A DNA stretch of 26,629 nt from a virus: positions 1-26,629 of the IMG/VR virus record IMGVR_UViG_3300017748_000113. One strand, 5' to 3'. Of this stretch, positions 23,383 through 25,946 are shown in pieces (positions within the stretch are counted from its first letter, which is position 1; every line of letters starts with the position of its first letter). Under the pieces are notes generated by a model, which worked only from the letters and a program-made list of their open reading frames with translations, had not been told where the DNA came from and searched no databases. A program made the position numbers and the translations under genes.

Positions 23383-24465
23383 ATGGCTGCAATTACATTA
23401 TCAAAATCAAAACCAAATACTAATTGGCAGGAATTTTGTAAGTGGGTCACGAGTACAGACAACCGCCTATACGTAGGATGGTTCGGAGTGCTAATGATAC
23501 CTTGCTTACTAGCTGCTACAACATGCTTTATACTCGCCTTTATTGCTGCACCTCCTGTGGACATAGATGGCATACGTGAACCAGTTTCTGGCTCCTTAAT
23601 CTATGGAAACAACATCATATCTGGAGCGGTCGTACCCTCCTCAAACGCAATCGGACTACATTTCTATCCCATCTGGGAAGCAGCAACACTTGACGAATGG
23701 CTCTATAACGGAGGGCCATACCAGCTTATCATCTTTCACTTCCTTATCGGTGCAGCATCTTACATGGGACGCCAATGGGAACTTAGTTATAGACTAGGGA
23801 TGAGACCTTGGATATGCGTAGCTTACTCAGCCCCAGTATCAGCTGCACTTGCAGTATTTCTTGTCTATCCTTTTGGACAGGGGAGCTTCAGTGATGGTAT
23901 GCCTCTTGGTATTTCTGGTACTTTTAACTTCATGTTCGTATTTCAAGCAGAACACAATATCCTTATGCATCCGTTCCACATGCTCGGTGTTGCTGGGGTA
24001 TTCGGTGGAGCTCTTTTCGCTGCTATGCACGGAAGTCTCGTTACTTCCTCAATCCTTAAGGAAACAACAGAAGAAGTATCTCAAAACTACGGTTACAAGT
24101 TTGGTCAAGAAGACGAGACTTATAACATCGTAGCTGCACACGGTTACTTTGGTAGACTTATTTTTCAATATGCTTCTTTCAATAATTCTCGTGCTTTACA
24201 TTTCTTTCTTGGTGCTTGGCCCGTGGTTGGCATATGGCTCACAAGTATGGGGATCTGCACAATGGCTTTCAATCTTAACGGCTTTAACTTTAACCAGTCA
24301 ATAGTTGACACTAACGGTAAAGTTATACCTACATGGGCTGATGTCGTTAATAGACAGAACCTCGGTATGGAAGTTATGCACGAAAGAAATGCACACAACT
24401 TCCCATTAGACCTAGCGTCTGCTGAATCTACTTCTGTAGCTCTTACAGCACCTGCACTAGGCTAA
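23383..24465 (+). CDS. psbA: Photosystem II reaction-centre protein D1
   Basis: The 360-residue protein is nearly collinear with cyanobacterial D1 (numbering is plus one here). Present are the chlorophyll and Tyr-Z region ([13 protein letters not shown]), the Mn ligands in [12 protein letters not shown] and in [16 protein letters not shown], and the C-terminal extension [15 protein letters not shown] that is cut after Ala. The residue at standard position 130 is Gln (SYMGRQWEL), the low-light D1:1 type rather than Glu. Phage D1 replaces the quickly turned-over host protein during infection. No intron interrupts the gene. It is followed by a structured RNA region and the capsid gene. Confidence 0.98.
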
Positions 24466-24474
24466 TAGTCACGT

Positions 24475-24535
24475 CCGTTCATCCTGTTTAGGACGCATGA
24501 AACCAAAGCATGGAACGGGGCTTTGGTATATGGAG
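24475..24535 (+). ncRNA. Glutamine-riboswitch-like RNA (glnA / Downstream-peptide family)
   Basis: The element starts ten bases after the psbA stop. P1 pairs CCGTTC (24475-24480) with GAACGG (24513-24518). Inside it a small stem pairs TCCT with AGGA (24482-24485/24490-24493). ACCAAAGC (24502-24509) pairs perfectly with GCTTTGGT (24520-24527), placing the 3' strand of P1 in its loop, that is, a pseudoknot. The CGTTCATCCT...AGGACG...GGAACG layout is that of glnA and Downstream-peptide RNAs, which bind L-glutamine. A GGAG ribosome site (24532-24535) and a 17-codon gene follow, as in Downstream-peptide RNAs. The usual GGAAGUAG core is diverged (CGCATGAAACC), so ligand binding is not certain. Confidence 0.7.
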
Positions 24536-24541
24536 ATTACA

Positions 24542-24595
24542 ATGCAAGTAACTTACGTATATCGTGGCATTGCTTACACAAAATTTGTTAAGTAA
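24542..24595 (+). CDS. 17-residue downstream peptide MQVTYVYRGIAYTKFVK
   Basis: The ORF lies 6 bases after GGAG and directly behind the riboswitch-like RNA. The sequence follows the M.LTYRG..Y pattern of the DUF4278 / Downstream-peptide ORFs, which are conserved in marine Synechococcus, Prochlorococcus and at least one of their phages. Its length equals the lower limit described for that family (17 codons). It presumably acts in the host response to nitrogen status or as a regulator of a host enzyme, but its target is unknown to me. Confidence 0.7.
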   Translation: MQVTYVYRGIAYTKFVK

Positions 24596-24605
24596 GTAAA
24601 ACGGG

Positions 24606-24716
24606 GGGGAGCACCTCAGAGTCGGACTCCCCTCTAATTGGTAAAAGCCTCTACGGAGACACCTTTTGCCGTCTGGACGGTAGGGATAGACCTACAAGCA
24701 GCTTGAGTCTTAGCTG
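24606..24716 (+). other. Series of five hairpins between peptide gene and capsid gene
   Basis: H1 is GGGGAG/CTCCCC (24606-24611/24627-24632). H2 is GGTAAAAG/CTTTTGCC (24640-24647/24663-24670), capped by CTC-TACG-GAG (24649-24658), a UNCG-class tetraloop. H3 is CCGTC/GACGG (24669-24673/24676-24680). H4 is GTAGG/CCTAC (24680-24684/24691-24695). H5 is CAGCT/AGCTG (24699-24703/24712-24716). None is followed by a T-run. Such close packing suggests a functional RNA, a processing region or a transcript-protecting 3' end for the psbA message. Confidence 0.5.
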
Positions 24717-24723
24717 ATATAAT
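24715..24723 (+). promoter_or_regulatory. Extended -10 promoter candidate for the capsid gene
   Basis: TGATATAAT is a perfect extended -10 (TGnTATAAT). Transcription would start near 24730 and give a leader of about 47 bases before the capsid ATG at 24777. No good -35 is visible, which extended -10 promoters tolerate. A phage-RNAP promoter may also exist here but cannot be recognised. Confidence 0.4.
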
Positions 24724-24776
24724 TAAGATTCCAACAATTCTAGATCTAGAGACGATAACTAATACCCTACAAATAA

Positions 24777-25946
24777 ATGGCACAACAGTCAACAAATAAT
24801 CCTAGCTCACAAACCTTTCTGGGTAGGATAAATACTGCGACTAACGCTACAAATAATAGAGATTTGTATCTTAAATTATTTTCTGGCGAGATGTTTACTG
24901 GCTTCCAGAGAGAGACAATCGCACGTGACTTAGTCATGAAGCGTACTCTAACTAATGGACGCAGTTTACAGTTCATCTATACTGGACGCACAAGTGCGGA
25001 ATACCACACTCCAGGCAACAGTATATTAGGAAACTCTGACAAAACTCCTCCAATAGCGGAGAAGACAATTACAGTTGATGATCTACTCATCAGTTCTGCA
25101 TTTGTATATGAGTTAGATGAGACACTAGCACACTATGAAATGAGAGGAGAAATTTCCAAGAAGATTGGATATGCTCTTGCTCAAAAGTATGATAGACTTA
25201 TCTTCAGAGCTATTGCTAAAGGTGCTAGACAGGCTAGCCCAGTATCCCTAACCTCTTTCGTAGAGCCAGGTGGTACACAAATCCAAGTTGGTGCAGGTTC
25301 TAACGCTGACGATGCTCTTGATGATGATAAACTTGTAACAGCATTTTATGATGCTGCAGCAGCTTTAGATGAAAAAGGCGTATCTGATGACGGAAGAGTA
25401 GCTGTACTTAACCCACGTCAGTACTATTCACTTATAAAAGGAGCAGGTACTAACGGGTTAATTAACAGAGACGTACAAGGTACATCTTTACAAAGCGGAA
25501 ATGGTGTAATTGAGATTGCAGGTATTCAAATCTACAAGTCAATGAACGCTCCATTCTTCTCTAAGTATGGTACTAAGTATGCTCCATCTTCTGGTGCAGC
25601 AGCTGGCACTGACCTTGATACAATAGATCCTGGAAATACAGGTTCATTCGTATCTGAAGGTATCGAAACAGCTAACACAGCAACAGGCAACAACTACGGA
25701 GCTCGTCAGAACTACGGTGCTGCCTCTAACTTTGCAAACACATGTGGCTTAATCTTCCAAAGAGAAGCAGCAGGTGTTGTAGAAACAATAGGGCCACAGG
25801 TTCAAGTAACAAGTGGTGATGTTTCAGTTGTTTACCAAGGCGATGTCATCCTAGGAAGACTAGCTATGGGAGCAGATTACGTTAATCCTGCAGCTTGTGT
25901 AGAATTGTTCGCTGGAACAACTACAAAGCCAGCAGCTTTCTCATAA
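24777..25946 (+). CDS. Major capsid protein (T7 gp10-like)
   Basis: The 389 residues (T7 gp10A: 345) have the HK97-fold pattern of podovirus coat proteins. The N-terminal arm (NNRDLYLKLFSGEMFTGFQR), the TLTNGRSLQFIYTGRTSAEY strand region, DLLISSAFVYELDETLAHYE and the spine helix DDDKLVTAFYDAAAALDEKG are visible, followed by VLNPRQYYSLIKG in the P-domain. There is no Shine-Dalgarno before ATG 24777. It forms the icosahedral shell around the gp9-like scaffold. It is followed by an intrinsic terminator, exactly as T7 gene 10 is followed by T-phi. Confidence 0.96.
   Translation: MAQQSTNNPSSQTFLGRINTATNATNNRDLYLKLFSGEMFTGFQRETIARDLVMKRTLTNGRSLQFIYTGRTSAEYHTPGNSILGNSDKTPPIAEKTITVDDLLISSAFVYELDETLAHYEMRGEISKKIGYALAQKYDRLIFRAIAKGARQASPVSLTSFVEPGGTQIQVGAGSNADDALDDDKLVTAFYDAAAALDEKGVSDDGRVAVLNPRQYYSLIKGAGTNGLINRDVQGTSLQSGNGVIEIAGIQIYKSMNAPFFSKYGTKYAPSSGAAAGTDLDTIDPGNTGSFVSEGIETANTATGNNYGARQNYGAASNFANTCGLIFQREAAGVVETIGPQVQVTSGDVSVVYQGDVILGRLAMGADYVNPAACVELFAGTTTKPAAFS

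Follow-up and report, generated by a model that had tools for sequence, protein, structure and literature searches.

The window, by which we mean the whole stretch of 26,629 nucleotides that was analysed (IMG/VR virus record IMGVR_UViG_3300017748_000113), is a fragment of a T7-like cyanophage, in which terminase, phage RNA polymerase, primase/helicase, DNA polymerase, ribonucleotide reductase, a head-tail adaptor, hli, psbA, the capsid protein and a tail protein were recognised. Between psbA and the capsid gene lie a glutamine riboswitch aptamer and a short open reading frame (ORF) with one YRGxxY unit (Table 1). The sequence elements that a preliminary description had named in this region (24475-24595) are all present where it placed them.

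Table 1. Features at the aptamer locus, in order of position in the window
Feature	Position	Strand	Evidence or remark
psbA (photosystem II D1), upstream neighbour	23383..24465	+	phrog_182, E 1.8e-193
P0 (predicted), 5' strand GUCACG, directly 5' of aptamer	24468..24473	+	complementary to CGUGGC 24563-24568
Glutamine-II (type II, formerly Downstream-peptide) riboswitch aptamer	24473..24527	+	RF01704, 57.5 bits, model 1-60/60
Pseudoknot strand 1, CGUUC	24476..24480	+	pairs with GGAACG of the P2 loop; identical to crystallised RNA (PMC6698751)
P1 hairpin, UCCU-GUUU-AGGA	24482..24493 (TCCT 24482-24485, AGGA 24490-24493)	+	sequence; Rfam alignment; 19 distinct P1 stems
CGCA	24494-24497	+	sequence
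P2 hairpin, ACCAAAGC-AUGGAACGGG-GCUUUGGU	24502..24527	+	pseudoknot strand 2 in loop; covariation, 39 distinct stems
P3 (predicted), 5' arm GGUAUAUGGAGAUUAC	24525..24540	+	predicted fold; covariation; first three bases GGU are also the P2 end
Shine-Dalgarno GGAG	24532..24535	+	sequence; paired inside predicted P3
17-codon ORF MQVTYVYRGIAYTKFVK, one YRGxxY unit	24542..24595 (ATG at 24542, TAA at 24593-24595)	+	YRG frame after 183/183 phage aptamers; pN/pS
P3 (predicted), 3' arm, within ORF (codons 3-7 and first base of codon 8)	24548..24563	+	synonymous-shuffle stability
P0 (predicted), 3' strand, Arg-Gly codons CGU GGC	24563..24568	+	codon choice
Major capsid protein, downstream neighbour	24777..25946	+	phrog_27239 and phrog_267, E about 1e-78

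An Rfam search of the window revealed only one family above threshold, RF01704, which was matched over its full length (E 1.2e-11) against a gathering score of 33. RF01739 (glnA/type I) had no match in the window or in 11 T7-like records carrying the module. The preliminary description had proposed a glutamine-riboswitch-like RNA and had named both kinds; its Downstream-peptide (type II) part was thereby confirmed with the covariance model, and its glnA part was not. It had also described an 8-bp stem that pairs with P1 as a pseudoknot. The stem exists, with arms ACCAAAGC and GCTTTGGT at 24502-24509 and 24520-24527 and the loop ATGGAACGGG, but it is GGAACG in this loop that pairs, and its partner is CGTTC instead of P1. 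Comparison with relatives, which had likewise been proposed, supports P2: in 39 distinct stems of fixed register 98% of cells were paired, versus 66% (maximum 74%) when the arms were re-dealt. The invariance of pseudoknot strand 1 is not independent evidence, because the pattern with which copies were collected required CGUUC. The glutamine pocket of a crystallised Prochlorococcus Glutamine-II RNA is formed by C1, G2, U3, G18, C19, A33, G35, G36, A37, A38, C39, G40, G41 and G42 (PMC6698751), and the window aptamer is identical to it at every one of these nucleotides and at every pseudoknot nucleotide. The window aptamer is thus almost certainly a type II glutamine riboswitch, an additional member of an already known class, and with its glutamine site intact a nitrogen-status sensor in this T7-like cyanophage, as had been proposed, is likely.

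Folding predicted two helices besides those of the aptamer. One is a hairpin, P3, that pairs the Shine-Dalgarno with codons 4-6 and leaves the AUG in its loop; the other is an outer helix, P0, in which the Arg-Gly codons are the partner of the 5' flank. The Shine-Dalgarno had a mean unpaired probability of 0.15-0.17 in the computed fold of the window. In nearly all distinct peptides, native RNAs comprising leader and ORF were more stable than shuffles with synonymous codons, with a mean z of -1.7 for 78 short forms, -2.1 for 26 long forms and -1.3 for a third class. Pair 5 of P3, which is U24529-A24559 in the window, joins the base following GGUA to the third position of the codon preceding Tyr. 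It was scored only where a GGUA-like anchor was found (153 of 183 phage copies). It was paired in 16 of 17 distinct combinations by six pair types, against a permuted mean of 46%, and 0 of 5000 permutations were as good. On the capsid tree all 108 placed copies (108/108) were paired, with five types and 23 state changes, and 13 of 13 independent contrasts agreed (p 0.0002), a result possibly inflated because the module may be inherited or exchanged whole. Two further P3 pairs gave no significant covariation in the same test. P0 of at least 4 bp was observed in 68 of 110 distinct phage flank/core pairs and was absent in the other 42; its pair 6 showed G-C to A-U covariation (45/57 paired versus 38.3 permuted, p<0.0005). 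Furthermore, CGT-GGC follows TAT in 134 of the 183 copies, whereas in the window genes CGT makes up 23% of Arg codons and GGC 14% of Gly codons. These sequence comparisons show that pairing between the leader and the peptide codons is under selection. Separately, inspection by eye pointed to an alternative possible platform in podoviruses with peptides of the MSDLEKRY/MSINLIRF class (L087, L219, L269, L283, L302, L309, L323 and L324): TTCGTA in their 5' flank complements TACGAA, which directly precedes the start codon.

The sequence GGU is common to the base of P3 and the end of P2, which suggests that P2 and P3 compete. In a nearest-neighbour model with P1 and P2 fixed, however, no Shine-Dalgarno release was seen (median unpaired probability 0.28 free versus 0.27 fixed), so that the competition would touch only the base of P3; we give it slightly less than an even chance. 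Because the bound and unbound states modelled thermodynamically show no such release, we infer the mechanism, and take its direction from the tested Prochlorococcus type II switch, in which glutamine activates expression (PMC6316151). We propose that, at low glutamine, the Shine-Dalgarno would be held in P3, formed by the leader and codons 3-8 and closed by P0 in many phages. Glutamine would lock the pseudoknot and P2, whose 3' end GGU doubles as the base of P3; P3 would then shed its lowest pairs, initiation would become easier, and the peptide would be made when glutamine is plentiful. It is probable from the sequence evidence that a 17-residue micropeptide with one DUF4278-like YRGxxY unit is translated under the control of a type II glutamine riboswitch, and the reading towards which we lean by analogy is that glutamine turns the peptide on through initiation. 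The lack of any rise in computed Shine-Dalgarno accessibility with the aptamer fixed would also fit an OFF switch, or action via RNA decay or processing and not translation. Such an arrangement is rather unlikely, since the tested Prochlorococcus switch turns expression on and the Shine-Dalgarno lies inside the switching region.

Phage aptamer copies were pooled into 191 instances, of which 8 were too near a contig end, and the remaining 183 include duplicates of one contig. Each of these 183, which have adequate downstream sequence, is followed by an ORF with [YC]RGxx[YF] (183/183; 105 distinct peptides of 13-48 aa), so that the 17-codon ORF with its YRG motif, as first described, holds across the phages. 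The ORF starts 22-30 nt past the pseudoknot loop, with one exception at 11, and the peptide is 17 aa long in 92 of the 183 copies; 17-aa forms are also found in P-RSP2 (MKQIKLVYRGVVYYINN) and SS120-1 (MKRTKLVYRGVTYYVNR). As a control, YRG frames were looked for in 77 readable host loci that have a very similar aptamer before a different small protein, and 0 of 77 had one. Among 45 distinct 17-codon ORFs, pN/pS was 0.46 in frame versus 0.79 and 0.83 in the other two frames, a ratio that understates the amino-acid constraint because RNA pairing also lowers silent change. Frames that begin at the first ATG (MGVYHDSNL...) were rejected as out-of-frame ATGs, the YRG frame being present in each such locus. 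The codons might instead be conserved merely as one side of an RNA structure, with a non-functional peptide, and TAT and CGT GGC are indeed nearly invariant in phages and paired with the leader. This is improbable, because hosts and phage SS120-1 write the same YRG with other codons (TAC AGA GG), YRGxxY is retained, as two repeats, in T4-like phages, whose aptamers are of type I, and some phage ORFs have gained in-frame N-terminal extensions of 15-20 codons. The 17-aa peptide is, in all likelihood, a real gene.

Its relation to DUF4278 was tested with Pfam. A 21-aa form of the window peptide had no Pfam match and did not reach the DUF4278 (PF14105) cut-off, and a 34-aa podovirus form scored 19.6 bits versus a cut-off of 25.3. 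Because these scores lie below the curated cut-off, we label the podovirus peptide DUF4278-like only. The window peptide also matched weakly the YRG end of phrog_5049 (E 0.022). The host YRG repeat proteins do match Pfam DUF4278 (E 7e-8 and 6e-11), and the relation to DUF4278 that had been suggested is supported. RF01704 matches were found in 31 of 31 sampled Prochlorococcus genomes, with 1-5 per genome. In 34 of 40 readable host loci the protein that follows has 33 or 57 aa and two or three YRG-type repeats; the other 6 lie before an unrelated protein of 54-56 aa. The host YRG codons are TAC/TAT AGA GG, versus TAT CGT GGC in phages, and YRG is therefore conserved at the protein level. A search of hosts with a phage-like pattern returned only the YRG-less paralogue; the model-based search recovered the YRG paralogues. 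The Prochlorococcus paralogue that is closest to the phage aptamer in its 5' half precedes the 54-56-aa protein MNNLLQIREKIKRANRLYEAQ..., without YRG (L342, L346, L093-L172), and this protein had no Pfam match above cut-off.

The element was found by blastn in P-SSP7, P-SSP2, P-SSP3, P-GSP1, NATL2A-133, NATL1A-7 and others, and it also occurs in dozens of IMG/VR contigs; in several podovirus records, among them P-SSP7 and P-GSP1, no feature is annotated beneath the match. RF01704 scored above cut-off in 10 of 11 T7-like records retrieved as blastn matches. In S-SBP1 the match is partial and sub-threshold (19.6 bits), and the YRG frame is nevertheless present; Syn5 and P60 gave no RF01704 match in Rfam. 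A simple pattern detected the aptamer in 62 of 80 contigs collected via the capsid protein, and many of those without it begin close to the capsid gene. Contigs from a pattern search of IMG/VR that was blind to context nearly all encode head proteins of this lineage. In P-RSP2 (L085:500-660), the module is found right at the beginning of the deposited record, ahead of opposite-strand genes and not in its usual position preceding the capsid gene, possibly an artefact of where the record opens.

Position alone might suggest that the aptamer regulates a neighbour, either the capsid gene or, as a 3' element, psbA, with the peptide merely a leader: in nearly all T7-like contigs the module lies between the scaffold/psbA and capsid genes, and in the window the aptamer begins 10 nt past the psbA stop. 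However, the capsid start lies anywhere between 205 and 1235 nt from the aptamer, with further ORFs in the interval, 31 loci whose upstream sequence reaches 2.5 kb or more have no psbA, and T4-like phages carry the aptamer/YRG pairing elsewhere, upstream of td. Because the spacing to the peptide is, by comparison, nearly fixed, the target is very likely the peptide and not psbA or the capsid gene, and regulation of a neighbour is quite unlikely. The idea that the peptide is produced along with the photosynthesis genes is likewise weak, as the module persists where psbA is absent or has moved.

Two further observations were made downstream of the peptide. In relatives without psbA (L014, L018, L046 and similar), a second small ORF, MNDRAIWFSIIGLAIVMGALELSH..., encoding a probable membrane protein, directly follows the peptide; it starts at or adjoining the peptide stop codon (AAATGAATGAC), which suggests translational coupling. 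In the window, 24603-24700, between the peptide stop and the capsid gene, holds a second conserved structured RNA. Its parts are a G-rich hairpin, whose 7-nt loop resembles a T-loop and reads TTCGAGT/TGCGAGT in L026, L082 and similar relatives, another hairpin around CTCTACGGAG, and GACGGTGGGATAGACCAC. Of 183 loci, 84 contain 10-mers of this RNA such as GGGATAGACC. In 6 sequences, changes on both sides were seen for 5 of the 23 predicted pairs; a search of 24580-24800 gave no Rfam match to it, even at E 10.

The core motif GGAAGUAG is that of the glnA/type I aptamer. The preliminary description had applied it to what is a type II aptamer, and its suggestion of an altered core, with altered ligand or affinity, was rejected as highly improbable, because every crystallised glutamine-site nucleotide is kept in the window and nothing was found in its favour.

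Glutamine aptamers next to YRG proteins are also found in other cyanophage groups. glnA-type RNAs in T4-like cyanophages have already been reported (PMC9964418, PMC9602691). We found type I glutamine aptamers in P-SSM2, P-SSM7, S-SSM7, P-TIM68 and S-PM2, above cut-off in P-SSM2 and P-TIM68 only, and two in tandem in P-TIM68 and S-PM2. In all five phages the aptamers precede 40-56-aa proteins with two YRG repeats (P-SSM2: L414:1155-1552; others L402, L404, L405, L406), and according to annotation the pair lies upstream of thymidylate synthase (td) in the three phages P-SSM2, P-TIM68 and S-PM2. Four of the five proteins pass the DUF4278 cut-off (26-30 bits), and that of S-PM2 (21.0) is below it. 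In siphovirus PSS2 (L416:1182-1431), a sub-threshold type II match (30.8 bits) lies just before a 57-aa two-repeat YRG protein, which is annotated as similar to host P9303_11001 and scores 23.0 bits for DUF4278, below cut-off. P-SSM4, P-HM1, Syn9 and MED4-213 gave no glutamine-aptamer match in Rfam.

Weinberg 2010 (PMC2864571) described Downstream-peptide RNAs that precede ORFs encoding 17-100 aa, marine metagenomes being the source of many. The phage module shares the aptamer fold, the conserved nucleotides, a nearby short ORF and YRGxxY with picocyanobacterial RF01704 RNAs (Yfr6 and PMM1846 leaders). It differs from them in that the phage peptide has one YRG unit (17 aa) and the host proteins have 2-3, in its codons, in a leader with P3/P0-codon pairing, and in its locus between scaffold/psbA and capsid genes. 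With the glnA/type I RNAs (RF01739; T4-like cyanophages, gifB of Synechocystis) it shares glutamine sensing and, in T4-like cyanophages, a small YRG (DUF4278) protein downstream; the aptamer architecture differs, and neither the window nor the T7-like phages match that family. IF17, the product of gifB, also follows a glutamine riboswitch and its DUF4278 region is N-terminal, whereas the phage ORF ends after 17 codons, without the C-terminal glutamine synthetase inhibitor part; the DUF4278-like N-terminus of IF17 is dispensable for glutamine synthetase inhibition (review, PMC6316151). The T4-like YRG proteins belong to phage family phrog_5049 (E 1e-17 to 1e-22), whose model covers two YRG repeats, unlike the 17-aa podovirus form.

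The phage module, which combines a type II aptamer, a single-unit YRG micropeptide and a codon-built platform, is a variant of the host pairing of a glutamine riboswitch with DUF4278. New here, at the level of a predicted fold, is that the podovirus Shine-Dalgarno would sit in a hairpin with the peptide's own codons, the base of which shares GGU with P2. In the literature searched, we found no description of the podovirus module or of the link between phage aptamer and YRG; Klaehn 2018 and Ames and Breaker 2011 may mention phage copies earlier. The pairing of aptamer and peptide is kept across the whole of this virus group and echoed in two unrelated groups, and peptide output therefore probably follows the nitrogen of the infected cell. 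The preliminary description had noted neither this generality of the module among T7-like cyanophages, nor the pairing of type I aptamers with YRG in T4-like ones, nor the use of the peptide codons in the switching region. More speculatively, the peptide might act on the targets of host DUF4278 proteins, probably in nitrogen assimilation, and the phage would thereby adjust nitrogen assimilation to the nitrogen state of the infected cell; this putative effect on the host is tentative. A wider reading, which we consider somewhat unlikely as a whole, is that three unrelated cyanophage groups (with type II aptamers in T7-like phages, tandem or single type I aptamers in T4-like phages and a type II-like aptamer in siphovirus PSS2) carry a glutamine-gated effector of the DUF4278 kind, in podoviruses a single 17-aa YRG unit with its own codons in the platform, which mimics or poisons host riboswitch-controlled DUF4278 proteins, so that infection would both read and reset nitrogen status.

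T7-like cyanophages abound in the ocean, and one of them, P-SSP7, serves with Prochlorococcus MED4 as a laboratory model. In this module, codons of the controlled gene seem to supply the switching region of the riboswitch, an arrangement that can be tested by silent changes, and the 17-aa form offers a minimal DUF4278-like unit for testing. The occurrence of host riboswitch-linked DUF4278 proteins, whose function is putative, in three phage groups suggests that they are important in infection.
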